The notes beneath the pieces are model-generated. The model did no database searches. It was not told the origin of the DNA and saw only the letters and a list, made by a program, of their open reading frames with translations. A stretch of DNA of 64,000 nucleotides from Acidovorax sp. 107 (GTDB taxonomy: Bacteria; Pseudomonadota; Gammaproteobacteria; Burkholderiales; Burkholderiaceae_C), in NCBI RefSeq assembly GCF_003058055.1, contig NZ_QBTZ01000001.1:1800501-1864500 (forward strand). The letters are read 5' to 3'. The translations under genes and the position numbers were made by a program. Positions 9,210 to 50,122 of this stretch are shown here, piece after piece; the first letter of the stretch is position 1, and each line of letters starts with the position of its first letter.

Positions 9210-9231
9210 AATGTCTTATTGACAGGACATT
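9210..9231. promoter_or_regulatory. candidate GntR operator overlapping a -35 box
   Basis: A 22-bp site with perfect 6-bp arms (AATGTC ... GACATT) lies just upstream of the gntR start. A consensus TTGACA -35 hexamer (9219-9224) falls inside it, and 17 bp further on CTAATA overlaps the start codon, which would make the gntR message nearly leaderless. A repressor bound here would block RNA polymerase, and inducer binding to the UTRA domain would release the whole operon. Confidence 0.5.
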
Positions 9232-9246
9232 AGAACTATTCCTAAT

Positions 9247-10059
9247 ATGACCCCCATGCCCTCCAACAACCTGCCTTTGCCCAAGTACCACCAGATCTAT
9301 CTGGTGCTGCGCGAGCAGTTGCAGGAGGGCCGGTTTGCCGATGGCCTTCCGGGTGAAATGGCGTTGATGCGGCAGTTCGCCGTGGCGCGGGTGACGGTGC
9401 GCCGTGCACTGGAGCTGCTGGAAGGCGAGGGCATGATCTCCCGCGAACCCGGCCGGGGCACCCGCCCGGTACCACCCGCTCCAGCCAGCACCGGTGGCGC
9501 GGAGGGCGATAGCGATGTCAGCCGTGCGCACCTCACCGGTTTGCTGGAGAACCTGGTCAGCATGGGCCTGCGCACCTCGGTCAAGGTGCTGGATGTGGAT
9601 ACGGTCACGGCGTCCCGTGCCGTGGCCGGTGCGCTGAACATCGCGGTGGGCGACGCCGTGCAAAAAGCGGTGCGTGTGCGCAGCACCAAAGAGGGCCCGC
9701 TGTCCCATATCACCACTTATGTGCCCGCCGACATCGCCCGCCAGTTCGGACGGCGCGAGCTGGCGCGCAAACCCATTCTGGTGCTGCTCGAAGAATCCGG
9801 CGTGAAGGTGGGCCGTGCCCACCAGACCATTTCCGCCAAGCTGGCCGATGCCGTGGTGGCCCGGCACCTCGATGTGTCGGTGGGCTCGGCCCTGCTGGCC
9901 GTGCGCCGCCTCATTTATGACGACCAGGAGCGCCCGGTGCAATGGTTGCACGGGTTGTACCGGCCAGACCGCTACGAATACGAAATGCAGCTGTCCCGCG
10001 TGGGCAGCATCGATGCCAAGGTCTGGGTCAGCAAAGAGCTGTCGGCCCAGTTCCACTGA
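9247..10059 (+). CDS. GntR/HutC-family transcriptional regulator
   Basis: 270 residues. A winged helix (YLVLREQLQEGRFADGLPGE, then RVTVRRALELLEGEGMISRE) is joined to a C-terminal UTRA ligand-binding domain ending LHGLYRPDRYEYEMQLSR. HutC-type members sense a pathway substrate or intermediate. It is the first gene of a long same-strand catabolic operon, 46 bp before the binding-protein gene, so it is the likely local regulator. ATGs at 9247 and 9256 are both possible and neither has a clear Shine-Dalgarno sequence; the upstream palindrome suggests autoregulation. Confidence 0.9.
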   Translation: MTPMPSNNLPLPKYHQIYLVLREQLQEGRFADGLPGEMALMRQFAVARVTVRRALELLEGEGMISREPGRGTRPVPPAPASTGGAEGDSDVSRAHLTGLLENLVSMGLRTSVKVLDVDTVTASRAVAGALNIAVGDAVQKAVRVRSTKEGPLSHITTYVPADIARQFGRRELARKPILVLLEESGVKVGRAHQTISAKLADAVVARHLDVSVGSALLAVRRLIYDDQERPVQWLHGLYRPDRYEYEMQLSRVGSIDAKVWVSKELSAQFH

Positions 10060-10105
10060 CCCGATCCTCATCCCCCCACTAAAACCACCTGCCAGGAGAA
10101 TGCCC

Positions 10106-11308
10106 ATGAGTACTCGCCGCCATTTCATGTCCCAGTCGGCCGCCGCCGCGTCGGCGCTGGCCTTCCCCCTGGTGGGAGGGGCACAGGCCAAGGCCGTCAA
10201 GGTGGGGGTGCTGCACCCCGTGACTGGTGCACTGGCCTATTCGGGCCAGCAATGCCGTGAAGGCGCGATGATGGCCATCGAGGACATCAACAAGGCCGGC
10301 GGCCTCAAGGCCCTGGGCGGCGCCAAGCTCGAAGCCCTGCTGGGCGATGCCCAGTCGCAGCCCCAGGCCGGTGCAGCCGAAGTGGAGAAGATGAACGAAG
10401 CGGGCGTTTCGGCCGTGGTGGGGGCATTTGCCTCGGCCATCTGCCTGGCCACCACGCAGGCCGCCGCCAAGTACAACCTGCCCCACATCGTGGATGTGGG
10501 CGTGGCGGACCAGATCGTGGAACGCGGCCTCAAGAACACCTTCCGCTTTGGCCCCGGCTACAAGAAGTGCGCCGAGACGGCCGTGGCCAACCTGCATGTG
10601 CTGAACACCGCCGCAGGCAAGCCTGCCAAGACGGTGATGATCATCCACGAGGAATCGCTCTTTGGAACCGGCACCGCGCAGTTGCTGGCGCGCGAGCTGC
10701 CCGGCTATGGCTACGAGGTCAAGGAGATCGTCAAACACGCGAACCCCACGCGTGACTTCAACAACATCGTGTTGCGCATGAAGGCGATCAACCCCGACAT
10801 CGTCATCCCCGCCAACTACTACAACGAGTACGCGCTGCTGGTGCGCACCATGCAGCAGCAAAAGGTCACGCCCAAGGCCATCTATTCGGTGCTCGGCGGA
10901 GCGGCGTCGAGCTACAAGTTCGTCAAGGAGTTTCCGGACGCAGCCAACGGAATCATTGACTGCAACCACTGGTTCAACCCCAAGGACAAGCGCGCGCAGG
11001 ACCTGAAGAAGCGTGTCGAAGCCAAGGGCCTGTTCTTCAGCTACGAGCTGTTCATGACCTACACCTCGATGTGGCTGCTGGCCGATGCGCTGGAGCGCGC
11101 CAAGTCGATGGACCGCGCGGCCCTCATCGACGCGCTGGAGAAGAGCACCTTTGCCGATCACATCATGCCGTACGGGCCCACCAAGTTCGTGGCCGGGCAG
11201 AACCAGGGCGCCCAGCCGCTGATGACCCAGGTGTTGAACAAAGACATCAAGGTAATCATCCCGCGCGACTACCGCGAAGCGGACCCGCTCTTCCCGCTGA
11301 AGGCCTGA
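10106..11308 (+). CDS. LIV-type ABC transporter substrate-binding protein
   Basis: 400 residues, type I periplasmic binding fold (Leu/Ile/Val-binding family). Start choice: AGGAG lies 7 bases before this ATG, whereas the in-frame ATG 6 bases upstream is too close to it. The signal peptide contains STRRHFMSQSAAAA and could be Tat or Sec. Lobe motifs include VKVGVLHPVTGALAYSGQ and AVVGAFASAICLATTQAA. LIV-family proteins bind amino acids, amides, urea and aromatic acids; the enzymes downstream suggest a small amide, imide or carboxylate ligand here. Confidence 0.9.
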   Translation: MSTRRHFMSQSAAAASALAFPLVGGAQAKAVKVGVLHPVTGALAYSGQQCREGAMMAIEDINKAGGLKALGGAKLEALLGDAQSQPQAGAAEVEKMNEAGVSAVVGAFASAICLATTQAAAKYNLPHIVDVGVADQIVERGLKNTFRFGPGYKKCAETAVANLHVLNTAAGKPAKTVMIIHEESLFGTGTAQLLARELPGYGYEVKEIVKHANPTRDFNNIVLRMKAINPDIVIPANYYNEYALLVRTMQQQKVTPKAIYSVLGGAASSYKFVKEFPDAANGIIDCNHWFNPKDKRAQDLKKRVEAKGLFFSYELFMTYTSMWLLADALERAKSMDRAALIDALEKSTFADHIMPYGPTKFVAGQNQGAQPLMTQVLNKDIKVIIPRDYREADPLFPLKA

Positions 11309-11346
11309 CACCCACCACTTTTCAGCCCTGATCGCAGGGGCTGCGG

Positions 11347-11367
11347 GGCGCCTCGCACCGAGGCGCC
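11347..11367 (+). promoter_or_regulatory. intercistronic stem-loop after the binding-protein gene
   Basis: A perfect 9-bp GC stem (GGCGCCTCG/CGAGGCGCC) with a 3-base loop lies in the 96-bp gap between the binding protein and the first permease. There is no T run, so it more likely protects the upstream message or thins transcription into the permease genes than ends it fully. Confidence 0.5.
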
Positions 11368-11404
11368 AGGCCGCGCCTTTGTCTGATTAGCGCCCATTCC
11401 CTCC

Positions 11405-12277
11405 ATGTTCGACCTCAGCATCCTCTTTCCGTCGGTCCTCAACGGCCTGACCACGGGCGCGGTGTATGCCCTCATCGCGCTCGGGCTCACGTTGATCTAC
11501 GGCGTGCTGCACATCATCAACTTCGCGCACGGTGCGTCGCTGATGCTGGCGCTGTACGCGGTGTACCTGCTCAAGCAGCACTTCGGGCTCGACCCCTATC
11601 TGGCGCTGCCCATCCTGGTCCCTGGCATGTTCGCCCTGGGTTATGCGCTGCAGCGCCTGGTCATCAACCGCGCCAGCCACGGCAAGGACGAAAACATCCT
11701 GCTCGTCACGCTGGGCATTTCCATCGTGATGGAAAACCTCGCGCTGCTGTTCTTCAAATCCGATACGCGCACCATCGAGACGGCCTACACCCTCACCACC
11801 GTGGCGGTGGGGCCCGCCATGATCGCCTTGCCCAAGCTGGTCGCTTTTGCTGGTGCGCTGGTGGTGTCGGCCGTGCTGCTGTGGATCGTGGGCCGCACCG
11901 ACTTGGGCCGCGCCATCCGCGCGGTGGCCAAGGAGAAGCACGGTGCCAAGCTCATGGGCATCAATGTGGACCATGTGTATGCCATGAGCTTTGGGATTGG
12001 TCTGGCCTGCCTGGGTGCTGCCGCCTGCTTTCTGCTGCCAGCGTATTACGTGAACCCGCAGGTGGGTAGCGGCTTTGTGCTGGTGGCGTTCACCATCGTG
12101 GTGCTGGGCGGCATGGGCAGCTTTACCGGCGCGCTGGTGGGTGGTCTGCTGATCGGCGTGGTGGAGTCGCTGGGCGGCCTGTACCTGGGTGAATCGCTGG
12201 GCCAAATCGGCATTTTTGCCATCTTTATCGCCGTGTTGCTGTTCCGCCCGCAGGGCTTGTTTGGAGCCAAGGCATGA
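11405..12277 (+). CDS. LIV-type ABC transporter permease (LivH family)
   Basis: 290 residues with about eight predicted membrane helices. The N-terminus LNGLTTGAVYALIALGLTLI and IYGVLHIINFAHGASLM are characteristic of LivH permeases, as is GRAIRAVAKEKHGAKLMGIN, the cytoplasmic loop that contacts the ATPases. Its stop codon overlaps the next start (ATGA), so translation is probably coupled. Confidence 0.93.
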   Translation: MFDLSILFPSVLNGLTTGAVYALIALGLTLIYGVLHIINFAHGASLMLALYAVYLLKQHFGLDPYLALPILVPGMFALGYALQRLVINRASHGKDENILLVTLGISIVMENLALLFFKSDTRTIETAYTLTTVAVGPAMIALPKLVAFAGALVVSAVLLWIVGRTDLGRAIRAVAKEKHGAKLMGINVDHVYAMSFGIGLACLGAAACFLLPAYYVNPQVGSGFVLVAFTIVVLGGMGSFTGALVGGLLIGVVESLGGLYLGESLGQIGIFAIFIAVLLFRPQGLFGAKA

Positions 12278-13245
12278 AGCAGCTTGCAAGCATTGGATTG
12301 TTTGCCGTCGTCGTGGCGGCCATCGCGGCGTTTTCCGACTCCGGCGTGTTGCTCAACTTCGTGATGATGTCGCTCTACGCGGCGCTGCTGGCGCAGGCGT
12401 GGAACATCCTCGGGGGCTTTGGCGGTCAGTTCTCGTTCGGGCACGCACTGTTCTTCGGAACGGGCGCCTACATACAGGCCATTGCCCAGATGCAAGGGGG
12501 CATCAATCCCTGGATTGCATTGCCCATGGCGGTGGCTGGCAGCGCGCTGGTGGGGCTGTTCGTGGGCGGGCTGTCGTTCCGTTACGGACTCAAGGGCTCG
12601 TACTTTGCGCTGGTCACGCTGGCTTTTGCCGAGGTGTTTCGCATCCTGGCGCTGTCGGTGCCGTTCACCGGCGCAGGTGTGGGGCTGATGCTGCCGCTCA
12701 AGGAGTCGCTCTCCAACATGCAGTTCGGATCGCGCAAGGGTTTTGTCTTCCTGATCCTGGCGCTGGTCACACTGGCGCTGCTGGTCAGCTGGTGGCTCAA
12801 GAACTCGCGCTTTGGTGCCTGGCTGCAGGCCGTGCGCGACAACGAAGACGCAGCGCGCGCCATCGGCGTCAATCCCTTCGGCGTGAAGATGGGCGCCATT
12901 GCCCTGTCGGGCGGCTTCATGGGGGCAGCCGGGGCGTTCTATGTGCAGGTGTTCCAGTACATCGACCCAGGCATTGCCTACGGTTCGGTCACGTCGGTGG
13001 AGGCCCTGGTGGCGGCCATCGTGGGTGGCATTGGCACCGTCTGGGGCCCTGTGCTGGGTGCGCTGGTGCTGCACATCCTGGCCGACGTCACGCGCAACCT
13101 GTTTGGCCAGTTGCCCGGCATCAACATGGTGATTTACGGCGTGGTGCTGGTGCTCATCGTGATGTTCCTGCCCCGTGGCATTGCGGGCATCGGGCAGTCG
13201 GTGGTGGCGGTGTGGAAACGTTCGGGAGGCCGCCATGGCGAATGA
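12274..13245 (+). CDS. LIV-type ABC transporter permease (LivM family)
   Basis: 323 residues, hydrophobic throughout. LivM signatures are AQAWNILGGFGGQFSFGHA and SVEALVAAIVGGIGTVWGPV, with the EAA-like loop AVRDNEDAARAIGVNPFGVK. It pairs with the LivH-type permease to form the membrane channel. The 3' end overlaps the next gene by 11 bp. Confidence 0.93.
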   Translation: MKQLASIGLFAVVVAAIAAFSDSGVLLNFVMMSLYAALLAQAWNILGGFGGQFSFGHALFFGTGAYIQAIAQMQGGINPWIALPMAVAGSALVGLFVGGLSFRYGLKGSYFALVTLAFAEVFRILALSVPFTGAGVGLMLPLKESLSNMQFGSRKGFVFLILALVTLALLVSWWLKNSRFGAWLQAVRDNEDAARAIGVNPFGVKMGAIALSGGFMGAAGAFYVQVFQYIDPGIAYGSVTSVEALVAAIVGGIGTVWGPVLGALVLHILADVTRNLFGQLPGINMVIYGVVLVLIVMFLPRGIAGIGQSVVAVWKRSGGRHGE

Positions 13246-13996
13246 CCTGTTGCAGCTCAACGGGCTGAGCAAATCCTTCGGCGGCCTGAAAGCCGTGCAA
13301 AACGTGAGCCTGTCGGTGCCAGAAGGTTCGCTGACCGCCCTGATCGGTCCCAACGGCGCGGGCAAGACGACGCTCTTTGCACTGATGTCAGGTTTTGTAC
13401 GGCCCGACACAGGCACCGTGCGCTTTGCGGGCCAGGACATCACGGGCCAGGCCCCGCACCTCAACGCCCGGCTGGGCATGACGCGCACCTTCCAGATCGT
13501 GCAGCCTTTCGCAGCGCAGACCGTGCGCGAAAACATTGCCGTGGGCGCGCACCTCAAAGAGCCCAGCCGCCGTGCCGCGCTGGGGCTGGCGAGCGACGTG
13601 GCGGCCCGCGTAGGCCTGGCCCCGCAGCTGGACAAACCTGCGGCCGACCTCACGGTGGCCGGCCGCAAGCGCCTGGAGCTGGCGCGCGCCCTGGCCACCC
13701 GGCCGCGCCTGCTGCTGCTCGATGAAGTGCTGGCTGGCCTCAACCCCCAGGAGATTGCCGAGATGATTCCCGTGGTGCGCGGCATTGCCGATGGTGGCGT
13801 GACCGTGTTGATGATCGAACACGTCATGCAGGCGGTGATGAACTTGGCCGAGCATGTGTGGGTGCTGGCCCAGGGCCAGCTCATTGCGCAGGGCAACCCC
13901 GCGCAGGTCACCTCGGACGAGCGGGTGATCGAGGCCTACCTCGGCCACGGCACCGCCGCCCGTTTGCGCGCCGCCGCACCGCAGGAGGCCGCATGA
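13235..13996 (+). CDS. LIV-type ABC transporter ATPase (LivG family)
   Basis: 253 residues. Walker A is GPNGAGKTT, Walker B is LLLLDEVLAGLNPQE and the switch His lies in LMIEHVMQAV. The ABC signature is degenerate: LTVAGRKRLELARAL stands where LSGGQ or LSYGQ is expected. This variant is seen in some LIV-type ATPases, so the protein may still be active with the F-type partner. The start at 13235 has GGGAGG 6 bases upstream and overlaps the LivM-type gene; the longer in-frame form is rejected. Confidence 0.92.
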   Translation: MANDLLQLNGLSKSFGGLKAVQNVSLSVPEGSLTALIGPNGAGKTTLFALMSGFVRPDTGTVRFAGQDITGQAPHLNARLGMTRTFQIVQPFAAQTVRENIAVGAHLKEPSRRAALGLASDVAARVGLAPQLDKPAADLTVAGRKRLELARALATRPRLLLLDEVLAGLNPQEIAEMIPVVRGIADGGVTVLMIEHVMQAVMNLAEHVWVLAQGQLIAQGNPAQVTSDERVIEAYLGHGTAARLRAAAPQEAA

Positions 13997-14709
13997 GCAC
14001 CGCCCCTTTGCTGGAGATCACCGGCCTGCGCGGCGGCTACGGCCGGGTGGAAGTGCTGCGGGGCGTGGACCTGCAGGTGCAGCCCGGCGAGACTGTGGCG
14101 CTGCTGGGCAGCAACGGCGCGGGCAAGTCCACGCTCAACAACGTGGTCTGCGGCATCTACAAGGCCTGGGCGGGCAAGGTGGCGTTTGATGGGGCCGACC
14201 TCAGCGGCGCCCACTACACCGAGGTCGTCAAGGCGGGTCTGATTCAGGTGCCCGAAGGCCGCAAGATATTCCCCAACCTGAGCGTGATGGAGAACCTGGC
14301 GCTCGGCAGCTTCACCCGGGCGCGCGAGCGCCGCGCCGAGAACATCGACAAGGTGTTTGCCATCTTTCCGCGCCTGAAGGAGCGCACCCTGCAGCTCGCC
14401 GGCACCATGAGCGGTGGCGAACAGCAGATGCTGGCCATTGGCCGCGGAATGATGGCCGAGCCGCGCCTGCTCATCCTCGACGAGCCCTCGCTGGGCCTGT
14501 CGCCACTGCTGGTCGAAGAGATGTTTGGTCTGATCCGGCAGCTGCGCTCCACCGGTCTCGCGGTGATGCTGGTGGAGCAGAACGTGGGCCAGTCCCTCGA
14601 AATCGCCGACCGCGCCTACGTGATGGAGAACGGAAGCATCCGCTTCTCGGGTGCCCCCGCCGACTTGCTGCGCAGCGACGACCTGCGCCGCGCCTACCTG
14701 GGGCTGTGA
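13993..14709 (+). CDS. LIV-type ABC transporter ATPase (LivF family)
   Basis: 238 residues. Walker A GSNGAGKST, Q-loop VPEGRKIFPNLSVMENL typical of LivF, signature MSGGEQQMLAIGRGMM, and Walker B LLILDEPSLGLSP are all intact. It forms the ATPase heterodimer with the G-type subunit. The start overlaps the previous stop (ATGA) and has AGGAGG upstream. It completes the five-gene importer. Confidence 0.94.
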   Translation: MSTAPLLEITGLRGGYGRVEVLRGVDLQVQPGETVALLGSNGAGKSTLNNVVCGIYKAWAGKVAFDGADLSGAHYTEVVKAGLIQVPEGRKIFPNLSVMENLALGSFTRARERRAENIDKVFAIFPRLKERTLQLAGTMSGGEQQMLAIGRGMMAEPRLLILDEPSLGLSPLLVEEMFGLIRQLRSTGLAVMLVEQNVGQSLEIADRAYVMENGSIRFSGAPADLLRSDDLRRAYLGL

Positions 14710-14776
14710 TGCCGGCACTTGCCCCGTAAGCCACCACCCCACAAGTCACAGAACTACAGGATTGGAGACACACCCC

Positions 14777-15742
14777 ATGACTTCACGCCGTCATCTCTTG
14801 GTTGCCCTGGGCGCCACGCCCGCCCTGTGGCAGGGCCCGCTGGCGCTGGCCCAAGGTAACACCCCCATCCGCATCCTGGTGGGTGCCCCGGCCGGTGGAT
14901 CCACCGACACGCTGGCGCGCACCCTGGCCATTGAAATGGGCCGCCTGCTGGGCCGCACCGTCATTGTCGAGAACCGACCTGGCGCGGGCGGCAACATCGC
15001 GGCCGACGCAGTGGCCAAGGCCGCGCCCGATGGCAATACCCTGCTGATGAGCTTCACCAGCCATGCCATCAACGCCAGTCTGTACAAGACGCCGCCGTTC
15101 GACCCCATCAAGGACTTCACGCCGCTGACCTGTGTGGCGACCTCGCCCTCGGTGCTGGTGGCCAACCCCGCCGTGCCTGCCAAGGATGTGCGCGAACTGA
15201 TCGCCCTTGCCAAGGCCAAGCCCGGCAAGCTCAACTTTGCGATCGGCGCCGTGGGCTCGTCCCTGCACTTGGCGGGGGACGCGTTCAAGATGCAGTCGGG
15301 CGCCTATATCGTGAACATTCCGTATCGGGGTACTGCGCCCGCGTTGCAGGATGTGCTGGCCGGGCAGGTGGAGCTGATGTTTGCCGCCGTGGGCAATGCC
15401 CAGGCGCAGATCCGCGCAGGCAAGCTCAAGGCGCTGGGGGTGACCAGTGCACAGCGCCTGCCTGCGTTTCCCGATGTGCCCGCGATTGCCGAGGTGCTGC
15501 CCGGCTATGAATCCAGTGCCTGGTTCGGGCTTTTCGGCCCGGGGCAGATGAACCCGGAGCTGGCCAAGCGCATCAGCGACGCTGCGCGCCAAGCCATCGC
15601 CTCGCCCGATGTGAAGCGGCGCCTGGAGCACGAAGGTGCCGTGCCCGTGGGCAACAGCCCCGAAGAGTTTGCGCGCTTTGTGCAGGCCGAGATCCCGCGC
15701 TGGGCCAAGGTGGTGCAGTTTTCTGGAGCCAAGCCCGAATGA
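14777..15742 (+). CDS. Bug/TctC-family extracytoplasmic solute-binding protein
   Basis: 321 residues with an N-terminal signal peptide ending near ALAQG. Bug-family features are ILVGAPAGGSTDTLAR, VENRPGAGGNIAADAVAKA, DGNTLLMSF and the C-terminal GLFGPGQMNPELAKRI. These proteins bind carboxylates, commonly dicarboxylates or amides, and usually serve TctAB membrane partners, none of which is present here. Its place between the importer and the aconitase-family genes, with an ATGA overlap to the latter, suggests a role as an extra binding protein or sensor for the same substrate family. Confidence 0.9.
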   Translation: MTSRRHLLVALGATPALWQGPLALAQGNTPIRILVGAPAGGSTDTLARTLAIEMGRLLGRTVIVENRPGAGGNIAADAVAKAAPDGNTLLMSFTSHAINASLYKTPPFDPIKDFTPLTCVATSPSVLVANPAVPAKDVRELIALAKAKPGKLNFAIGAVGSSLHLAGDAFKMQSGAYIVNIPYRGTAPALQDVLAGQVELMFAAVGNAQAQIRAGKLKALGVTSAQRLPAFPDVPAIAEVLPGYESSAWFGLFGPGQMNPELAKRISDAARQAIASPDVKRRLEHEGAVPVGNSPEEFARFVQAEIPRWAKVVQFSGAKPE

Positions 15743-17025
15743 GCCTCCCATCCAGCCCCCCGAGCACGCTGGCGCAGAAGCTCGTGGCCCGCGCCAGTGG
15801 CCGCGACCGCGTCACGCCCGGCGAGATCGTCAATTGCCGTGTCGATCTGGCCATGTTCCACGACTCGTCCGGCCCGCGTCGGCTCAAGCCCATGCTGGAA
15901 GAGCTGGGCGCCCAGATCTGGGACAAGCGCCGCGTGGTCCTGGTGATGGACCACTACCTGCCCGAGCGCGACGACGAATCGCGCCGCATCGTGCGCATCG
16001 CCCGCGACTGGGCGCGCGAGCAGGACCTGCCCCATGTGTACGACGGCCAGGGTATCTGCCATGTGGTGGTGCCCCAGCACGGCCACATCCGCCCCGGCAT
16101 GTTCTGTGTGGGCGGCGACTCGCATTCGCCCACGGGCGGCGCGTTTGGCGCCTACATGTTCGGCATTGGCAGCACCGAGATGCTGGGCGTGGTCGTGACC
16201 GGTGAAATCTGGCTGCGCGTGCCGCACACCCTGCAGATGCACTGGAGCGGCCAGTTGGCTGCAGGCGTGACCGCCAAGGACATGATGCTGCACATGATCG
16301 GCCGCTTTGGCATGAACGGCGGCCAGTATCAGGCCGTGGAATTTGCCGGTCCCGCCGTACAGGCGCTGGGCATGCAAGAGCGCATGACCCTGTCCAACAT
16401 GAGCGCCGAGCTGGGTGCCCAGGCCGGGCTGATTGCCCCCGACGCCACGACAAGCGACTGGCTCCGGGCTGCAGGAGTGCCCGATGCAGACCTGCAGGGG
16501 CTGGATGCCTGGCGCACGGACGAAGGCGCTGACTTGACGCGCCACACTTTCGACGCCACCACACTCACGCCCCAGGTCGCCGCCCCGCACAGCCCCGCCA
16601 ACGCCGCGCCCGTGGCGCAGCATGCAGGGCAGGGCATTGACGTGGCCTATATCGGCGCCTGTACTGGCGCCAAGTTGGACGACCTGCGCGCCGCCGCCAG
16701 CGTGTTGCGTGGCCAGCGAGTGGCCGCCAGCGTGCGCCTGATGGTCGCGCCGGCCAGCCAGCGCGACCAAGCCGCTGCCCAGGCCGAAGGCGTGCTGCAG
16801 GTGCTGCAGGACGCAGGGGCTGAACTGTTCCCCACCACCTGTGGGGCCTGCGCGGGCTATGGCGACACGGTGGGCGACGCCACCAACGTCATCTCCAGCA
16901 CGGCGCGCAATTTCAAGGGCCGCATGGGCTCGCCCACGGCGCAGGTGTATCTGGCCTCGCCCTACACGGTGGCAGCTTCGGCCCTGCGTGGCTGCATTAC
17001 TGATCCCCGAGAGGTGTTGGCATGA
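15739..17025 (+). CDS. aconitase-family dehydratase large subunit (isopropylmalate/dimethylmaleate hydratase-like)
   Basis: 428 residues, the size of stand-alone LeuC/HacA/DmdA-type large subunits. The three [4Fe-4S] ligands are Cys308 (IGACTGAK) and Cys368/Cys371 (TTCGACAGYG). Other family motifs are VMDHYLP, GDSHSPTGGAFGAYMFGIGS and VTAKDMMLHMIG. It hydrates or dehydrates a 2- or 3-hydroxy dicarboxylate together with the small subunit encoded next (ATGA overlap). The operon holds no other leucine-biosynthesis gene but does hold a lyase of the dimethylmalate/methylisocitrate type, so a catabolic hydratase is favoured over LeuC. Exact substrate unknown. Confidence 0.88.
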   Translation: MSLPSSPPSTLAQKLVARASGRDRVTPGEIVNCRVDLAMFHDSSGPRRLKPMLEELGAQIWDKRRVVLVMDHYLPERDDESRRIVRIARDWAREQDLPHVYDGQGICHVVVPQHGHIRPGMFCVGGDSHSPTGGAFGAYMFGIGSTEMLGVVVTGEIWLRVPHTLQMHWSGQLAAGVTAKDMMLHMIGRFGMNGGQYQAVEFAGPAVQALGMQERMTLSNMSAELGAQAGLIAPDATTSDWLRAAGVPDADLQGLDAWRTDEGADLTRHTFDATTLTPQVAAPHSPANAAPVAQHAGQGIDVAYIGACTGAKLDDLRAAASVLRGQRVAASVRLMVAPASQRDQAAAQAEGVLQVLQDAGAELFPTTCGACAGYGDTVGDATNVISSTARNFKGRMGSPTAQVYLASPYTVAASALRGCITDPREVLA

Positions 17026-17522
17026 CGAGTATCCACCGCGTCTGGAAGTTGGGTGCCGACGTCGACACCGACGTGCTGGCCCCCGGCCACGCCATGAAGC
17101 ACGGCATCGACGTGCTGGCACGCCACTGCCTTGAATCCGTGCGCCCCGACTTTGTGCAGGGTGTACGAAAAGGTGATGTGATCGTGGCCGGGCCCAACTT
17201 CGGCATTGGCTCGTCGCGCGAGCAGGCGGCTGCCGTGCTGGTGCGCCTGGGCGTGGCGGCGGTAATTGCGCCGTCGTTCAGTGGCCTTTACTTTCGCAAC
17301 GCGTTCAACCTGGGCCTGCTGCTGCTGACCTGCCCCGAGGCCGACGCCATCGGGGAGGAGGAGGGCATCACCCTGAACGAACAAACACCTTCGGTCACCA
17401 CCGCCCTGGGGCGTGTGCTGGCCTGCGACCCGATTCCCCCGTTTCTTTTGGACATGGTGCGCGCCGGTGGGCTGATGAACCAGCTGCGCGCCCGCTTTGG
17501 CAAGGAGCCCCTGCATGGCTGA
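17022..17522 (+). CDS. aconitase-family dehydratase small subunit
   Basis: 166 residues, LeuD/DmdB-type swivelling domain. The phosphate/carboxylate-binding loop GSSREQA is at residues 63-69, and GPNFGIGSSREQAAAVLVR is highly typical. The substrate-recognition flap reads DTDVLAPGHAMKHG (residues 15-28), unlike the YLRT or YLVR type flaps of isopropylmalate isomerases. That supports a different, possibly smaller or branched, dicarboxylate. Its start overlaps the large-subunit stop and its end overlaps the next gene by 8 bp. Confidence 0.88.
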   Translation: MTSIHRVWKLGADVDTDVLAPGHAMKHGIDVLARHCLESVRPDFVQGVRKGDVIVAGPNFGIGSSREQAAAVLVRLGVAAVIAPSFSGLYFRNAFNLGLLLLTCPEADAIGEEEGITLNEQTPSVTTALGRVLACDPIPPFLLDMVRAGGLMNQLRARFGKEPLHG

Positions 17523-19236
17523 ACACACCCCCAACCCGCCGCCCATGGACCCAGTCATGGACCCGGTCACCTTGGCCGTGCTGCGCGGGCGGCTGGAGCA
17601 GATCGCTGACGAGATGGACGCCACGCTGTACCGCAGCGCGTTCAATCCCATCATTGCCGAGGCGCATGACGCCTGCCACGGCCTGTACGACGCCACCACG
17701 GGCGACACGCTGGTGCAAGGCAAGTCCGGCCTGCCGGTCTTCGTGGGTGCCATGGCCTTTGCCGTGCGCGCGGCCATGCGGGCGGCGGGCGAGCGCGGCG
17801 GCATCACGGCGGGCGATACCTGGCTGTTCAACGACCCCTACGAGGGCGGCACCCACGCCAACGACTTCAAGCTGGTGCGCCCATTCTTCCGCAACGGGCA
17901 GCTGTTCTGCTTCTTGGCATCGGCCGCGCACTGGCACGACGTGGGCGGCAACGTGCCCGGCAACTACAACCCGGCCGCCACCGAGTGCTGGCAAGAAGCG
18001 GTGCAGATTCCGCCGGTGCGCATCGTGCGCGGCGGGGTGTTCGACGACGACGTGCTCGCCATCCTCAAGGCCAACACCCGCCTGCCCGACAGCCTGTGGG
18101 GCGACCTGAATGGCCAGCTGGCCGCGCTGGACCTGGGCGAGCGCCGCCTGCACGACTTGCTGGACCAATACGGCGATGCCCAGGTGCAGCAGGCCATGGG
18201 TGAGCTGCGCACGCGCGCCGTCAAGCTCATGCAGTCGCACATCGCGGCGCTGCCCGACGGGCGCTACAGCTTCAGCGACATCCTGGACAACGACGGCGTG
18301 AAGGACGAGCCACTGACCATCGCGCTCGACATGACGGTGCAGGGCGACCGCCTCACGCTGGACTTCTCGCGCACCTCGCCGCAGTGCGCGGGGCCGGTCA
18401 ATATCTCGCGCGCCACGGCCATTGCGGCGTGCTACGTCGCCCTTAAGCACTTGTTCCCCGATGTGCCCGCCAATGCGGGTGTGCTCGATGCCGTGGACTT
18501 TGTGCTGCCCGAGGGGCTGGTCATCAGCGCCGCGCGCCCGCGCCCCGTGGGTGGCTACACCGAAACCATCCTGCGCATGATCGATGTGATCTTCAGCGCC
18601 ACCGCGCAGGCCGACCCCAAACGCGCCATGGCCCAGGCCTACGGCACCATCAACGCGCTGTCCATCGCCGGGCTGCGCACCGATGCCGCCCGCAAGGGCC
18701 AACGCTGGGTGATGTTTAGCTTCTTCGGCGGCGGCCACGGCGGGCACAGCGATGGCGATGGCCTGAGCCACGGCAACGCGCCTATCTCCACCGCCACCAT
18801 CCCGCCGCTCGAAATTCTGGAGGCGGCGTACCCCGTGCGCTTCACGCAGTGGGCGTTGCGGCCCGATTCGGGCGGCAACGGCCAGCAACGGGGCGGCCTG
18901 GGCGCTATCTACGAAATTGAGCTGCTGGAGCAGGATGCCGAGGTCTTCATCTTTGGCGAGCGTGGCAAGGCCGCACCTCAAGGCATTTCGGGCGGTAGCG
19001 CCGGTTCCATGAACGTTTTCAGCTATGAAAACAATAGTGAATGGAAGCAGCCACCCATGCGCTCCAAGATGATTGGCATCCGCCTGAAGCAGGGCGAGCG
19101 CGTCCGCCTGGAGACCCCCGGTGGCGGTGGCTACGGTGCCCCAGCCGCGCGGGATGCGGCAGCGCGTGAGAAGGATCTGGCGATGGGCTATGTGAGCGTC
19201 CCTAACGCACTGAAAGCATTGAAAGGCAAGGCATGA
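17515..19236 (+). CDS. hydantoinase B/oxoprolinase-family subunit (HyuB-like)
   Basis: 573 residues of the HyuB family, the partner of HyuA in ATP-dependent opening of 5-membered lactam, hydantoin or imide rings. Motifs seen are LEQIADEMDATLYRSAFNPI, DTWLFNDPYEGGTHANDF and the Gly-rich FGGGHGGHSDGDG. The ATG at 17515 is used; it overlaps the small-subunit gene. Near the 3' end the segment VFSYENNSEWK is coded by AT-rich DNA matching the dispersed repeat, suggesting an in-frame insertion. HyuA follows with an ATGA overlap; note the B-before-A order. Confidence 0.9.
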   Translation: MAEHTPNPPPMDPVMDPVTLAVLRGRLEQIADEMDATLYRSAFNPIIAEAHDACHGLYDATTGDTLVQGKSGLPVFVGAMAFAVRAAMRAAGERGGITAGDTWLFNDPYEGGTHANDFKLVRPFFRNGQLFCFLASAAHWHDVGGNVPGNYNPAATECWQEAVQIPPVRIVRGGVFDDDVLAILKANTRLPDSLWGDLNGQLAALDLGERRLHDLLDQYGDAQVQQAMGELRTRAVKLMQSHIAALPDGRYSFSDILDNDGVKDEPLTIALDMTVQGDRLTLDFSRTSPQCAGPVNISRATAIAACYVALKHLFPDVPANAGVLDAVDFVLPEGLVISAARPRPVGGYTETILRMIDVIFSATAQADPKRAMAQAYGTINALSIAGLRTDAARKGQRWVMFSFFGGGHGGHSDGDGLSHGNAPISTATIPPLEILEAAYPVRFTQWALRPDSGGNGQQRGGLGAIYEIELLEQDAEVFIFGERGKAAPQGISGGSAGSMNVFSYENNSEWKQPPMRSKMIGIRLKQGERVRLETPGGGGYGAPAARDAAAREKDLAMGYVSVPNALKALKGKA

Positions 19237-21317
19237 GTAGCGGCAAGGTTTCGGACAAGGCTTTGAGCGAGGCGTCCTATGTGGTGGGCGTGGACGTGGG
19301 CGGCACCTTCACCGACCTGTTCGTGCTGGACGAGCGCGACGGCAGCGCCCGCATCGTCAAGGTGCCCAGCACCCGGGGCGAGGAGGCGCGCGGCTTCATG
19401 AATGGCGTGGCGCGCGTGGCCGACTCGGCCGGGCAGATCGCCACCATCGTGCACGGCACCACCGTGGGCACCAATGCGCTGCTGGAGCGCAAGGTGGCGC
19501 GCACCGGCATCATCACCACCCGCGGCTTTCGCGATGTGCTGGAGATGCGCCGCCGCGACCGGCCGCAGACCTGGGGCCTGCGTGGCAGCTTCGAGCCCAT
19601 CGTGCCGCGCGACTTGCGGCTGGAGGTGGACGAGCGCGTGTTGGCCGACGGCACGGTGCACACACCGGTGGATGTGGAGCAGGTCAAGGCCCAGGCCTGT
19701 GCGCTGCTTCATGCTGGCTGCGAGGCCGTCTGCGTATTCTTCATCAACACCTATGCCAACCCCGCCAACGAACAGGCCGCCGTAGCCGCCGTGCGCAGCG
19801 TGTGGCCCAACCCGCATGTGACGGCCGCGAGCGAGGTGCTGCCCGAAATCCGTGAGTTCGAGCGCTGCTCCACCGCCACGCTCAACGCCGCCCTGCAGCC
19901 CGTGGTGGGCAGCTACCTGGAACGGCTGGAAGGCGACCTGCGCACACAAGGCTTTGGCGGTGAACTGCTCATCGTGCAGAGCAACGGCGGCGTGATGTCG
20001 CGCCAGACGGCGTGCGATGTGCCGGTGCGCACCGCGCTGTCGGGCCCGGCGGCGGGCGTGATTGCCTGCGCGGCGATTGCGCGTGCTGCGGGCTTTCCCG
20101 ATGTAATCACGGGCGACATGGGTGGTACCTCGTTCGACGTGTCGCTGGTGGCTAAGGGCGAAGCGGCGCTGGCTGCACAAACGGCCATTGAGTTCGGCAT
20201 GGTGGTCCGCTCGCCCATGATCCAGATCGAGACCATCGGCGCGGGTGGCGGCTCCATCGCCTCGGTAGACGCTAGCGGCATGCTGCAGGTGGGCCCCGAG
20301 TCGGCGGGCAGCATCCCCGGCCCGGCCTGCTATGGCCGGGGCAACACGCGCCCCACGGTGACCGATGCCAACGTGCTGCTGGGCCGCATTGCCGCCGACC
20401 GCCCCCTGGGCGGTGGTCTGCTGGCCGCCATGGACGCACAAAAGTCGCGCGATGCCATCGAGACCCATGTCGCCAAGCCCCTGGGCCTGGACGTGATGGC
20501 TGCTGCCGAAGCCATCCTCACAGTGGCCAACGCCAAGATGGCGGGCGCCGTGCGCGTGGTGTCCATCGAGCGCGGGCACGACCCGCGCCAGTTTGCCTAT
20601 ATGCCGTTTGGCGGCGGCGGCGCGCTGCATGTGTGCGCCATGATGCGCGAGGTGGGCGTGGGCACGGGCATCGTGCCGCGCTACCCCGGCGTGACCTCGG
20701 CCCTGGGCTGCGTGATGGCCGACATGCGCCACGATGCGGTGCAGACGCTGAACAAGCCCCTGGCCGACCTGGACGTGGCCGACCTGCGCCAGCGCGTGGC
20801 CACACTGGCCGCCACCTGCCAGCAACGGCTCGATTCAGCGGGCGTGAAGTTTGTGGAAGTGCAGGAGGTCATTGCGCTCGACATGCTCTACGCCGGGCAG
20901 ACGCACACCGTGCAGGTGCCTGTGGCTGCCGATGCGCTGAGCCACGAGGGCATCCCCGCCGCATTCGAGGCCGCCTACCGCGCCGCCTTCGGCCGCGTGC
21001 TTGACGGTATTGCCGTGCGGGTGATGAACCTGCGCTACGCCCGTGTCGGCGTGCGCCCCAAGTTCGACCTGACGGTGCTGGCCCCGCAGACCACCACGGT
21101 GAACCCCTCGCTGGGTGTGCAGCGTGTGTTCCACGCCGGCCGCTGGTGGGACGCCGCGCGCCACGCACGCCTGGACCTGCCGGTGGGCACCTGTATCGAT
21201 GGCCCGGCCATCCTGGAGCAGCCCGACACCACGGTCTGGCTGGAGCCTGGCTTCAGCGCCACGGTGGACCCGCTGGGCAATCTGCTGGTGCGGGCCGACG
21301 CGGGGGGCGCGGCATGA
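19233..21317 (+). CDS. hydantoinase A/oxoprolinase-family ATP-dependent subunit (HyuA-like)
   Basis: 694 residues with the actin-like ATPase fold of HyuA. GVDVGGTFTDLFVLD lies near residues 19-33, followed by HGTTVGTNALLERK, LSGPAAGVIACAAIA and GGTSFDVSLV. HyuA uses ATP to activate the amide carbonyl, and HyuAB opens N-methylhydantoin, 5-oxoproline and related rings. The product in this operon should be a half-amide of a dicarboxylate, which fits the downstream hydratase and lyase. It is followed by the isochorismatase-fold gene with an ATGA overlap, the same order seen in creatinine-type pathways. Confidence 0.9.
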   Translation: MSSGKVSDKALSEASYVVGVDVGGTFTDLFVLDERDGSARIVKVPSTRGEEARGFMNGVARVADSAGQIATIVHGTTVGTNALLERKVARTGIITTRGFRDVLEMRRRDRPQTWGLRGSFEPIVPRDLRLEVDERVLADGTVHTPVDVEQVKAQACALLHAGCEAVCVFFINTYANPANEQAAVAAVRSVWPNPHVTAASEVLPEIREFERCSTATLNAALQPVVGSYLERLEGDLRTQGFGGELLIVQSNGGVMSRQTACDVPVRTALSGPAAGVIACAAIARAAGFPDVITGDMGGTSFDVSLVAKGEAALAAQTAIEFGMVVRSPMIQIETIGAGGGSIASVDASGMLQVGPESAGSIPGPACYGRGNTRPTVTDANVLLGRIAADRPLGGGLLAAMDAQKSRDAIETHVAKPLGLDVMAAAEAILTVANAKMAGAVRVVSIERGHDPRQFAYMPFGGGGALHVCAMMREVGVGTGIVPRYPGVTSALGCVMADMRHDAVQTLNKPLADLDVADLRQRVATLAATCQQRLDSAGVKFVEVQEVIALDMLYAGQTHTVQVPVAADALSHEGIPAAFEAAYRAAFGRVLDGIAVRVMNLRYARVGVRPKFDLTVLAPQTTTVNPSLGVQRVFHAGRWWDAARHARLDLPVGTCIDGPAILEQPDTTVWLEPGFSATVDPLGNLLVRADAGGAA

Positions 21318-21937
21318 GTCACGCTGCTATTGAACCGCGCCACACCGCGCTGGTCATCATCGACCTGCAAAACGACTTTCTGGCGCCGGATGGCGCCTAT
21401 GCACGCGGTGGCGCCGTGAGCGCTGCCGCCCAGGCCTTGCCGCCCCGGGTGGCAGCGGTGGCCCAAGCGCTCAAGGCGGTGGGTGGCATGGTGGTGGGGA
21501 GCCAGTTCACCCTGTGGCCCGACGCGCAGGGCGAGCCCATGGTGTCGCCCCATCTCAAGGCCTTGCGCCCGTTTCTGCGCCGTGGCGACTTTGCACCCGG
21601 CAGCACCGGCCAGGCCCATGTGGCCGAGATCGCACCGTGGGTGGACGTGTCGGTGTGCAAGGTGGCGTATTCGGCCTTCTTCAACACCCAGCTCGACTGG
21701 GTGCTGCGCCGCGCGGGCATCACCACCGTGGCCGTGTGCGGCATCGTCACCAACGGAGGCGTGGCCAGCACGGTGCGCGATGCGCACATGCGCGACTACC
21801 AGACGCTGGTGCTGTCCGACGGATGCGCGGCCTTCAAGCAAGCAGTGCACGACACCTCGCTGGCCGACATGGCCAACGTGGCCCAGGTGCTGGCCTGCGC
21901 CGACTTTGCTGCCGCTGTGGCGGCTCGTTCCGCATGA
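21314..21937 (+). CDS. isochorismatase-fold hydrolase-like protein with Gly in the nucleophile position
   Basis: 207 residues. The Asp of the family triad is in VIIDLQNDF (Asp17) and the Lys in VCKVAYSAFF (Lys116). Where amidases of this family (maleamate or N-carbamoylsarcosine amidase) have the nucleophilic Cys, in a TxGC-type motif, this protein reads VTNGGVAST, with Gly149. True isochorismatases also lack that Cys, so the reaction may not be a Cys-based amide hydrolysis. From its place after HyuBA I would expect it to act on the ring-opened product. Start chosen at the ATGA overlap. Confidence 0.85.
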   Translation: MSHAAIEPRHTALVIIDLQNDFLAPDGAYARGGAVSAAAQALPPRVAAVAQALKAVGGMVVGSQFTLWPDAQGEPMVSPHLKALRPFLRRGDFAPGSTGQAHVAEIAPWVDVSVCKVAYSAFFNTQLDWVLRRAGITTVAVCGIVTNGGVASTVRDAHMRDYQTLVLSDGCAAFKQAVHDTSLADMANVAQVLACADFAAAVAARSA

Positions 21938-23358
21938 ATGCGCCCATGAGCACGCCCCGCATCTGCCATGCCGAGTATCTACCCGGCACCGTGGCGCAAG
22001 ACGCCCATGTGCCGGTGCTCATCGTGGGTGGCGGCGCTTGTGGCCTCACAGCCGCGCTGATGCTGCACGACGCCGGTGTGGACTGCGCCGTGCTGGAGCG
22101 CGACGCCACGCCACTGGGCTCCTCGGCCCTGTCATCCGGCTTTATCCCTGCGCCCGGCACGCAGGCGCAGCGCGCGGCGGGCATTGACGACAGCCCGGAG
22201 CGGTTTGCCACCGACATCAGCGCCAAGGCCAAGGGCAGGGCGGCGCCGCACCTGGTGCAGGTCTACGCCCAGGCCATTGGCCCGGCGCTGGATGCACTGC
22301 AAGTACGCCACGGCCTGCAGTGGCAGGTGCTGGATGGATTTCTGTACCCCGGCCACAGCTTGCGGCGCATGCACGCCACGCCCGAGAAAACTGGCGTGGG
22401 CCTGATGGGCCGTTTGGCCAACGCTGTGACGGCGGCGGACATTCCGCTGATCACCGAAGCCACGGTGCGCGAGCTGTGGGTCAACGCCCAGCAGCGCGTG
22501 ATCGGCGTGGGCTACGAGCGGCCCGACGGCACGCTGGAGCACCTGGCCTGCGACGCACTCATCCTGGCCTGCAACGGCTTTGGCGGTAACCCGGCCATGG
22601 TGCGCGAGTTGCTGCCCGAGATGCGCGATGCGCTGTTCTCCGGCCACACCGGCAATGACGGCAGCGCCATTGCCTGGGGCCAGGCGCTGGGTGCCCGGCT
22701 GGCCGACCTGGGTGGCTACCAGGGCCACGGCTCCTGGGCCATTCCGCAGGGCGCGCTGATCTCGTGGGCGCTGATGATGGAAGGCGGCATCCAGGTCAAT
22801 GCGCTGGGCGAGCGCTTTCACGACGAGACACAGGGCTACTCCGAGGCCTCGGTGCATGTGCTGGCGCAACCGGGCGGCGTGGCTTGGAATGTGTTCGATG
22901 CACCCATCCTCGCGCTGGCCCGTGGCTTCCCGGACTTTGTGGATGCCGAGGCGGCGGGTGCCGTCAAGCACTGCGACAGCGTGCAGGCGCTGGCGGCTGT
23001 GATTGGCTGTGAAGAGTCAAAATTGATAGCTACTCTCGCAAGCCATACGGGCGGTAGTGGCCAAAATGATGCAAATCACCGCACTTTTACCCGTCCACTG
23101 CAGGCGCCGTTCTGCGCCGTCAAGGTGACCGGCGCGCTGTTCCACACCCAGGGCGGGCTGGACATTGACGCCCAGTGCCGCGTGCTCGGGCAGCACGGCC
23201 AGCCGTTTCCCAATCTGCTGGCCGCAGGCGGCGCCGCGCGGGGCGTGTCGGGCGACGCGGTCTGGGGCTATCTCTCCGGCAACGGCCTGCTCAGCGCCGT
23301 GGCCGGTGGCTACATCGCTGCGCACACGGCGGCAGAACTGACCCGCCAGAAAGTCTGA
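21934..23358 (+). CDS. FAD-dependent oxidoreductase, fumarate reductase/succinate dehydrogenase flavoprotein-like
   Basis: 474 residues. The dinucleotide-binding motif VLIVGGGACGLTAALMLHDAG is near residue 28, with VLERDATPLGSSALSSG after it, and the C-terminal FAD motif LLAAGGAARGVSGDAVWGY closes the fold. The family includes fumarate reductase and 3-ketosteroid dehydrogenase-type enzymes that add or remove hydrogen across a C-C bond next to a carbonyl, which would fit saturating or desaturating the ring or dicarboxylate. A 60-bp stretch (about 23016-23078) coding EESKLIATLASHTGGSG is a dispersed-repeat insertion inside the reading frame. Start overlaps the previous stop. Confidence 0.85.
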   Translation: MNAPMSTPRICHAEYLPGTVAQDAHVPVLIVGGGACGLTAALMLHDAGVDCAVLERDATPLGSSALSSGFIPAPGTQAQRAAGIDDSPERFATDISAKAKGRAAPHLVQVYAQAIGPALDALQVRHGLQWQVLDGFLYPGHSLRRMHATPEKTGVGLMGRLANAVTAADIPLITEATVRELWVNAQQRVIGVGYERPDGTLEHLACDALILACNGFGGNPAMVRELLPEMRDALFSGHTGNDGSAIAWGQALGARLADLGGYQGHGSWAIPQGALISWALMMEGGIQVNALGERFHDETQGYSEASVHVLAQPGGVAWNVFDAPILALARGFPDFVDAEAAGAVKHCDSVQALAAVIGCEESKLIATLASHTGGSGQNDANHRTFTRPLQAPFCAVKVTGALFHTQGGLDIDAQCRVLGQHGQPFPNLLAAGGAARGVSGDAVWGYLSGNGLLSAVAGGYIAAHTAAELTRQKV

Positions 23359-23362
23359 AGAC

Positions 23363-24226
23363 ATGACCACCTCATCGTTGAAAGAACGCCTGCACGAACC
23401 CCGCGCCATGCTGGCCCCCGGCGTGTACGACGCCCTGAGCGCCCTGGTGGCCGAACAGGTGGGCTTCGAGGCGCTGTACCTCTCGGGCGCCTCCATTGCC
23501 TACACGCGCCTGGGCCGCTCGGACGTGGGCCTGACCACCTACACCGAGGTGGAAGACACCCTGGCCCGCATCACCGAGCGCGTGCGCACGCCCGTTATCG
23601 TCGATGCCGACACCGGCTTCGGCAACGCACTTAACACCCAGCGCACCGTGCGCGGCTTTGAGCGCGCAGGCGCGGCCATGGTGCAGATCGAGGACCAGGG
23701 CTTTCCCAAGCGCTGCGGGCATCTGGACGGCAAGACAGTGGTGCCCGTGGCCGAGATGTGCGGCAAGCTCAAGGCCGCGCTGGATGCGCGCCGCAGCGCC
23801 CACACCCTAATCCTGGCCCGCACCGACGCGCTGGCCGTCGAGGGTATCGACGCAGCCTTCGACCGCGCCGAGGCGTACTTGGAGTGTGGTGTGGACGCGC
23901 TCTTCATCGAGGCCCTGCGCACCCCCGAGCAGATGGACGCAGCCTGCCAGCGCTTTGCCCACCGTATCCCGCTGCTGGCCAACATGGTCGAAGGTGGCAA
24001 GACACCGATCCAGAGTGCGGCCGAGCTGCAGCAGCGCGGCTTTCGCATCGTGATCTTCCCCGGCGGCACGGCCCGTGCGGTGGCGCACACGCTGCAGGGC
24101 TACTACGCCAGCCTGCACACGCACCAGACCACAGCGCCCTTCAAGGACCGGATGATGGACTTTGACGGCTTGAATGCGCTGATCGGCACGCCCGAGCTTA
24201 TGGCCCAAGGCCGCCAGTACGAGTAA
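23363..24226 (+). CDS. isocitrate lyase/PEP mutase-family C-C lyase (2,3-dimethylmalate or methylisocitrate lyase-like)
   Basis: 287 residues, the length of the small ICL-superfamily lyases. Active-site loop KRCGH at 116-120 (catalytic Cys118), metal ligands Asp81 and Asp83 in VDADTGFGN, Glu110 in QIEDQ, and NMVEGGKTP. These enzymes split 2-hydroxy-dicarboxylates to a 2-oxo acid and a carboxylate, for example dimethylmalate to pyruvate and propionate. As the last gene of the operon, following an aconitase-type hydratase, it probably performs the final cleavage. Confidence 0.88.
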   Translation: MTTSSLKERLHEPRAMLAPGVYDALSALVAEQVGFEALYLSGASIAYTRLGRSDVGLTTYTEVEDTLARITERVRTPVIVDADTGFGNALNTQRTVRGFERAGAAMVQIEDQGFPKRCGHLDGKTVVPVAEMCGKLKAALDARRSAHTLILARTDALAVEGIDAAFDRAEAYLECGVDALFIEALRTPEQMDAACQRFAHRIPLLANMVEGGKTPIQSAAELQQRGFRIVIFPGGTARAVAHTLQGYYASLHTHQTTAPFKDRMMDFDGLNALIGTPELMAQGRQYE

Positions 24227-35391: not shown

Positions 35392-35430
35392 GGAGGAAAA
35401 AGGCGGTGGCAGAGATGGTGTGTAAGTATC

Positions 35431-37046
<1,616 letters not shown>

Positions 37047-44709: not shown

Positions 44710-44724
44710 TTGAAGGAGACCACC

Positions 44725-50014: not shown

Positions 50015-50122
50015 TGTTGATTTCCACGCAGAAGTGACCCACTAACCCCCGGGATTTCCATCCAAACCTGACCCACGTACTAACCCTAACCTGCTGCTTT
50101 GCTGAGCAGCAGGAGACCAGGA

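Follow-up and report, generated by a model that had tools for sequence, protein, structure and literature searches.

In the window analysed here (64,000 nucleotides of Acidovorax sp. 107, contig NZ_QBTZ01000001.1), 14 plus-strand genes form a single run at 9247–24226, mostly overlapping or abutting (gntR-livKHMGF-bug-acoL-acoS-hyuB-hyuA-isoC-fadR-icl), that, judging by the encoded proteins, probably constitutes an inducible operon for the catabolism of a five-membered cyclic imide with an alkyl substituent, or of a close cyclic amide. Many genomes repeat the gene set in unchanged order, so that the operon is not a chance assembly. An earlier note on this DNA correctly gave the single strand, the overlaps and the gene families, but its title counted thirteen genes, whereas its own list adds up to 14. 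Pfam and/or NCBIfam searches, for which 11 of the 14 proteins were submitted (livM, livG and livF were left out), confirm the named families for those 11. The observations consist of gene order, families, motifs, enzyme swaps and a common operator; from these we infer all of the chemistry, the order of the FadR and ring-opening steps, the role of IsoC, the repression and the substrate.

In the proposed pathway, the substrate would be imported by the LIV transporter, along with Bug where present, and the substrate or an intermediate would release GntR from the palindrome at which it represses the operon. FadR would desaturate a saturated, succinimide-level form next to the carbonyl; HyuBA, with ATP, would open the ring to an alkylmaleamate-type half-amide; IsoC would aid ammonia release by acid catalysis, perhaps with the neighbouring carboxyl group of the substrate; AcoLS would hydrate the alkylmaleate to a 2-hydroxy acid; and Icl would cleave the latter to a 2-oxo acid (probably pyruvate) and a carboxylate. 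Alkylmaleimides are plausible substrates. A route from a cyclic imide or lactam to a 2-oxo acid had been suggested in the earlier note; ring opening followed by the hydratase and the lyase is supported by the amidohydrolase swap in 15 loci and by PuuE-like genes (see below), while the roles of IsoC and FadR are revised here.

AcoL matches with E <= 1e-60 are present in 46 of the 299 genomes of the family to which the window belongs, and matches with at least 60% identity in 32 of the 299 (counted from the table). The loci sampled comprise 40 of the 58 places in family genomes and the 80 best of at least 588 confirmed in a species-genome collection; an AcoL filter of at least 60% identity leaves 113 loci (numbered with the prefix L), of which 107 are distinct, window included, after removal of 6 exact duplicates. 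Most locus titles name Burkholderiales genera, with exceptions that include L085, L095, L101, L130 and L134. The search for the same synteny elsewhere, proposed in the earlier note, finds the full set in many genomes, including those of other phyla. HyuBA is encoded in 50 of the 107 loci, an amidohydrolase in 15, and both in none. Among the loci that also hold icl, FadR is found in 41 of 42 with HyuBA and in 12 of 12 with the amidohydrolase, and IsoC accompanies HyuBA in 42 of 42; IsoC is present in none of the 15 amidohydrolase loci.

HyuB (17515–19236, hydantoinase/oxoprolinase B, PF02538) and HyuA (19233–21317, the ATP-binding subunit, assigned by Pfam) contain the Hydantoinase B and A domains, in agreement with the earlier claim of a HyuAB-family ring opener, for which ATP-dependent ring opening is predicted. 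The motif DVGGTFTD of HyuA is present in 47 of 47 orthologues, and the nearest PDB sequence is N-methylhydantoinase (7hk5, 412 bits); the NCBIfam caprolactamase equivalog cut-offs are not reached by HyuAB. In loci such as L036, L047, L050 and L113, hyuBA-isoC is replaced by a single gene for an amidohydrolase of about 490 residues, the operon being otherwise the same. The nearest PDB relatives of this enzyme are allantoinases and hydantoinases, and its metal-ligand motifs are found in 14–15 of the 15 copies. A quick-method tree of AcoL from 106 of the 107 loci (L065 was left out as partial) requires at least 4 changes between the HyuBA and amidohydrolase states, and its starred branches alone force 2 changes for the amidohydrolase label. 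The tree set also includes 12 loci (L065 would be the thirteenth) with acoLS-fadR but neither HyuBA nor amidohydrolase, hereinafter FadOnly. Six of these (L087, L090, L091, L097, L098 and L099) contain a divergent PuuE-like gene together with an MmgE/PrpD gene, and the other six are cut upstream by contig ends. The PDB matches of the L090 PuuE-like protein are PuuE allantoinase and related deacetylases, with the NCBIfam PuuE model under its cut-off; according to the available part of PMC9304392, the cyclic imidase HxnM and an imidase of Pseudomonas putida belong to the PuuE-type fold. A FadOnly-like layout with two PuuE-like genes is also found on a plasmid of Burkholderia plantarii (L170), but its PuuE-like and isochorismatase proteins share 91% identity with their L090 counterparts, and the two loci are therefore not independent. 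Given that one regulator and one operator serve exchangeable ring openers, these enzymes are likely to act on one substrate class.

FadR (21946–23358, or from 21934) is a FAD_binding_2 oxidoreductase with urocanate reductase (135 bits) and flavocytochrome c fumarate reductase (132 bits) as the nearest PDB relatives. Its Trp274, Tyr298 and Tyr442 align to Glu, Arg and Arg of fumarate reductase, whereas His261 and His400 are kept. In the fumarate reductase Fcc3, we take Arg402 to be catalytic and Glu378 and Arg544 to bind the carboxylate. The five active-site columns are invariant in 19 aligned FadR sequences, and the motifs are present in 63–65 of 67 locus copies and in all 5 distant homologues, among them those from Rhodococcus and Haloferax; the four misses (L098, L135, L141 and L153) extend past the edge of the locus or are short or split. 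A dicarboxylate enzyme of the fumarate or urocanate reductase kind was considered and rejected, given the replacement of the catalytic Arg by Tyr298 and of the carboxylate clamp by Trp274 and Tyr442; a neutral ring substrate seems to fit FadR better than a dicarboxylate.

The gene for the GntR/UTRA regulator of the HutC type (gntR, 9247–10059; PF07702, PF00392) is preceded by a putative operator, AATGTC-N10-GACATT (9210–9231), that overlaps a TTGACA box. With up to 3 mismatches, the operator core TGTCNTATTGACAGNACA is found 5' of gntR in 35 of 36 HyuBA loci, 9 of 9 amidohydrolase loci and 3 of 5 unlabelled loci, and in 0 of 11 FadOnly loci, 0 of 13 minimal acoLS-icl loci and 0 of 74 upstream stretches, each shuffled once. 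Looser palindromes with 4–5 mismatches occur in L082, L083, L090 and L102, which are of the FadOnly or minimal types. The window genome has one exact copy of the operator, and 8 others at 3 mismatches compared to 7 for a reversed control pattern. By eye, a possible -10 region (9232–9256) abuts the annotated start of gntR, and the ATG at 9256 may be the true start. The importer is encoded by livK (10106–11308, LIV-type substrate-binding protein; NF011933, under its cut-off), livH (permease, 11405–12277, PF02653), livM (permease, 12274–13245, named from sequence and position, with orthologues in the same order), and livG and livF (ATPases, 13235–13996 and 13993–14709, both named from sequence and position), and is present in 52 of the 54 ring-opener loci that hold icl. 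Among the latter loci, the Bug/TctC binding protein (bug, 14777–15742, PF03401) is found at 60% identity or more in 28 of 42 with HyuBA and 4 of 12 with the amidohydrolase, and thus appears optional.

Several loci encode potential isomerases. An MmgE/PrpD gene lies inside the HyuBA operon in L078, L037 (identical to L080), L085 and L153, and beside the six FadOnly operons. One member of this family is an (S)-(R)-methylsuccinate isomerase/epimerase, as stated in the available text of PMC12290011; the L078 protein receives no NCBIfam name, and the likeness of the proteins from these loci to this isomerase is at the family level and does not imply orthology. Proteins of the Asp/Glu racemase/arylmalonate decarboxylase family (maleate-isomerase-like) are encoded in L045, L099, L105, L108 and L143 and, in divergent form, in L083. 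The methylsuccinate isomerase precedent, the maleate-isomerase-like genes and the minimal acoLS-icl operons without a ring opener (18 loci labelled full) are compatible with a different scenario, namely, a dicarboxylate pathway of the itaconate, methylsuccinate or citraconate type that acquired HyuBA for a lactam, thioester or enol step, with ring opening being secondary. We consider this unlikely given that three unrelated families of cyclic amide hydrolases go with the same gene set, that the FadR pocket lacks the dicarboxylate clamp, and that ring-opener loci with icl almost always (52 of 54) include the LIV importer.

IsoC (21314–21937) is an isochorismatase-fold protein with Gly149 at the position of the catalytic Cys; Asp17 and Lys116 are kept. 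We take Asp-Lys-Cys to be the catalytic triad of the cysteine amidohydrolases of this fold (NicF, BiuH, RutB type), whereas isochorismatase proper (PhzD/EntB) presumably has Gly at the Cys position and Asp as the acid. Orthologues from the loci contain TNGGV in 47 of 47 cases (duplicates included, window excluded), where cysteine hydrolases have TNxCV, and all 120 homologues listed, of 7694 found, have Gly at this position (117 TNGGV, 1 TNGGM, 2 TTGGV). Despite this feature of isochorismatase proper, the best-scoring PDB sequences are cysteine hydrolases (cysteine and biuret hydrolases), the NCBIfam RutB and BiuH models match under their cut-offs, and the homologues are labelled cysteine hydrolase or ureidoacrylate hydrolase in several sources. 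The AlphaFold2 model has a mean predicted local distance difference test score of 90.3, and no argument here rests on it. An ordinary half-amidase was rejected because Gly stands for the catalytic Cys in the 47 copies and 120 homologues. The Gly form goes with this particular HyuBA: it is found in all 6 IsoC proteins encoded beside HyuBA in Roseomonas, Sulfitobacter, two Azospirillum, Neorhizobium and a Variovorax plasmid, whereas Cys is kept in the isochorismatase-fold proteins beside PuuE-like genes (L090, L170, L219 and L220), in Haloferax (L182), and beside a different HyuAB (30–37% identical) in L220. IsoC could be a nucleophile-free helper of ammonia release. Citraconic amides, which are substituted maleamic acids, are described in the available parts of PMC5342538 as undergoing acid hydrolysis aided by their own carboxyl group, with a similar statement on carboxyl-assisted amide hydrolysis in those of PMC8751315; they are relatively stable at neutral pH (PMC5342538, same parts), which leaves room for an enzyme.

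Hydantoin or ureide catabolism would assign different roles to the same proteins: HyuBA would produce an N-carbamoyl amino acid, IsoC would decarbamoylate it, FadR would oxidise the amine, and the hydratase and lyase would be merely co-regulated. The nearest PDB relatives, N-methylhydantoinase, cysteine/biuret hydrolases and allantoinase, along with the sub-threshold matches of RutB and BiuH to IsoC, fit this possibility, which nevertheless appears quite unlikely: IsoC lacks the Cys used by those hydrolases, the window operon encodes no racemase/carbamoylase pair, and the hydratase and the C-C lyase are left without a role, although all 8 HyuBA loci without icl are cut at the locus end.

AcoL (15739–17025), the large subunit of a homoaconitase/DmdA-type hydratase, exceeds the cut-offs of NF001614, TIGR02086 and TIGR01343 (homoaconitase/isopropylmalate isomerase-like subfamilies). 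Against the LeuC model TIGR00170, it scores 237 bits (cut-off 560), and a separate true LeuC encoded elsewhere in the window genome scores 777 bits. Leucine biosynthesis (LeuCD), a possibility for which the earlier note had proposed a check, is rejected on these profile scores, not on a tree. Residues C308, C368 and C371, the presumed 4Fe-4S ligands, are invariant in 30 sequences. The small subunit AcoS (17022–17522) scores 145.8 bits with TIGR02087, LeuD/DmdB (cut-off 109), and has HAMK or AYMK in 60 of the 80 copies with a parsed motif, at what we take to be the small-subunit loop position. Icl (23363–24226) is a C-C lyase of the isocitrate lyase (ICL)/phosphoenolpyruvate (PEP) mutase family with KRCGH in 86 of 86 orthologues; K-[KR]-C-G-H with a catalytic Cys is presumably the motif of such lyases. 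It scores 285 bits with the PrpB model TIGR02317, the cut-off of which (354) is passed by no protein of the window genome, and its best PDB match is at 188 bits. An anaerobic nicotinate-type operon, after the dimethylmaleate branch of Eubacterium barkeri, is very improbable: the hydratase and lyase are of the DmdAB and Dml families (TIGR02087 over its cut-off; 163 bits with 2,3-dimethylmalate lyase, 3fa3), but 3fa3 is not the best lyase match, and no gene for nicotinate dehydrogenase, enamidase or B12 mutase is recognised in the operon.

Kin clusters extend beyond Burkholderiales. Among 16 plasmid loci (L170–L173, L177–L182, L216–L221) hand-picked from searches with AcoL, MmgE, amidohydrolase and FadR (48 records in the FadR search), 13 encode a FadR homologue, 12 of these with a cyclic amide hydrolase in view (HyuBA in 7, PuuE-like in 3, amidohydrolase in 2). 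The three without FadR are from Paraburkholderia (L171), Cupriavidus (L172) and Natrinema (L180). In Roseomonas, Sulfitobacter, Azospirillum, Neorhizobium and others, LeuCD-type hydratases replace AcoLS; Acidiphilium and Sphingobium have no Icl match, with CaiB and HMG-CoA-lyase-like genes instead; and Rhodococcus has CaiB and a lyase that is nearest to RipC/CitE, under the cut-off. Thus, in the kin clusters of Alphaproteobacteria, Rhodococcus and Haloferax, FadR is kept while the ring opener, hydratase or lyase is changed. The retention of the plan under such swaps strengthens the prediction of a sequence in which a ring amide becomes a diacid and then a hydroxy acid, followed by C-C cleavage.

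Several points weigh against an imide pathway. The enzyme set recurs but is modular: of the 107 hydratase loci, 42 show no HyuBA and no amidohydrolase in view, with icl still present in 32 of these and fadR in 13. Furthermore, L116 and L171 (the latter by annotation) combine HyuBA, IsoC and Icl without FadR; the amidohydrolase locus L054 has no FadR or Icl within about 8 kb beyond; L082 and L083 of Pigmentiphaga encode IsoC without HyuBA or FadR; L144 contains both HyuBA and a PuuE-like gene; and L179 of Tistrella has FadR homologues with no ring opener in view. Ring opening by the HyuBA, allantoinase and PuuE families extends to hydantoins, ureides and lactams, and no precedent was found for the proposed mechanism of IsoC.

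A hint of the substrate comes from L170. The best PDB matches of its acyl-CoA dehydrogenase are named glutaryl-CoA dehydrogenase (GcdH; 735 bits), followed by 4w9u, named only acyl-CoA dehydrogenase (584 bits), whereas differently named enzymes score at most 237; the NCBIfam glutaryl-CoA dehydrogenase model is under its cut-off. The best family for the CaiB neighbour is succinate-glutarate CoA-transferase (542 bits, under the 750 cut-off). These annotations were known before the glutarate idea, so that they are not a clean prediction. Apart from L170, GcdH orthologues (70–87%) are found in 3 of the 107 loci (L039, L050 and L122), compared to 0.19 expected for 868,561 flanking bases; within 10 kb in 32 genomes, 2 are seen versus 0.14 expected. 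These Poisson figures presuppose that genes are placed at random and that a genome has about one GcdH (it is present in 31 of the 32 genomes searched, in 32 copies total), and the two counts share two cases (G042 = L050 and G064 = L039). In the window genome, GcdH lies about 1.2 Mb from the operon, and it is not among the flanking families found in four or more loci. The linkage is suggestive only. As a hint, GcdH neighbours in few loci point to a carboxyethyl-bearing alkylmaleimide and, taken with MmgE/PrpD, to alkylsuccinimide or alkylmaleimide substrates converted to pyruvate and a carboxylate such as glutarate.

Tentatively, the substrates of the operon could be haematinic acid and dihydrohaematinic acid (the succinimide form), which are the pyrrole fragments of haem and chlorophyll that bear a propionate, although we regard this specific assignment as doubtful. 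Ring D of chlorophyll is reduced and would yield the succinimide form, which would account for the presence of FadR (for desaturation) and of MmgE/PrpD (for epimerisation). Hydrolysed haematinic acid would be 2-methyl-cis-homoaconitate, which a homoaconitase-family hydratase would convert to 2-methylhomoisocitrate; by the chemistry, a methylisocitrate-lyase-like enzyme would cleave this to pyruvate and glutarate, and the latter would enter metabolism through glutarate CoA-transferase and glutaryl-CoA dehydrogenase, encoded near the operon in few lineages. According to PMC7318184, senescent leaves and lake sediments have been reported to contain maleimides and haematinic acid; in its own leaves, that study found haematinic acid but could not detect maleimides.

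Recurrent flanking families are mainly those of the FadOnly module (a second LIV set, SDR, AtuA), Bug proteins and lineage-specific genes. In FadOnly loci, SDR, DUF4387 and AtuA/DUF1446 genes lie between a LIV operon and gntR-acoLS-fadR (L087, 6595–9126; also L040, L091, L095 and L097–L099). The FadOnly-type cluster of L170, with its PuuE-like genes and glutarate-CoA module, is on a plasmid typed as conjugative, as is the Acidiphilium locus L220. In L042 (3239–7180, reverse-complement coordinates), genes for a thiolase, an OB-fold partner, CoA-transferase A/B and an extra Bug protein are inserted between acoS and the amidohydrolase gene. A second operon in the same genome as the window operon (L072, G000:C1:342981-362728; names by eye) encodes an AcoLS paralogue (34–35%), a LIV transporter, an IclR regulator, a PEP-mutase-like protein with an altered CGH motif and 3-oxoacid CoA-transferase-like proteins. 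Elsewhere in the window, also by eye, there are 2Fe-2S and molybdopterin subunits of a xanthine-dehydrogenase-type oxidase (44248–47007), molybdate-uptake-like genes (34708–37046) and an IS21-type transposase pair in a stretch of lower G+C content (50099–52442).

Microbial cyclic imide metabolism (e.g., in Blastobacter) employs an imidase and a half-amidase. The operon resembles it in the progression from imide to half-amide to dicarboxylate to central metabolites but differs in having the ATP-dependent HyuBA for the imidase, the Cys-less IsoC, and a hydratase with a C-C lyase; we know of no gene cluster for that metabolism. DmdAB and Dml of E. barkeri belong to nicotinate fermentation, which is anaerobic and is not known to involve HyuBA; the shared feature is an aconitase-family hydratase followed by an ICL-family lyase to yield pyruvate. 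In the nicotinate branch with HxnM and HxnN of Aspergillus nidulans, as proposed for the operon, a cyclic imide is opened and the amide released, but the substrate is of the glutarimide type, the imidase is PuuE-like, the amide hydrolase is separate and the product is alpha-hydroxyglutarate, with no hydratase-lyase pair described in the available part of the source (PMC9304392). The itaconate/methylsuccinate cluster shares branched dicarboxylates, an MmgE/PrpD epimerase and a C-C lyase but relies on CoA-thioester chemistry, and hydantoinase is not mentioned in the text of its source (PMC12290011). Searches of open-licence PMC literature, including those on the enzyme combination, found no description of this operon, and its genes are labelled piecemeal in records as 3-isopropylmalate dehydratase, pyrimidine utilisation protein and cysteine hydrolase.

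If the prediction is correct, this is an uncharacterised, widespread pathway of Betaproteobacteria with kin in Alphaproteobacteria, Rhodococcus and Haloferax, and it would provide a distinct subfamily of FadR proteins, as well as a Cys-less family of the isochorismatase fold, with functions that can be tested. The pathway plan would outlive its individual enzymes, and the pathway may be connected with what becomes of fragments of haem and chlorophyll; should haematinic acid be the substrate, the operon would fill a gap at the end of tetrapyrrole turnover in soil and water.

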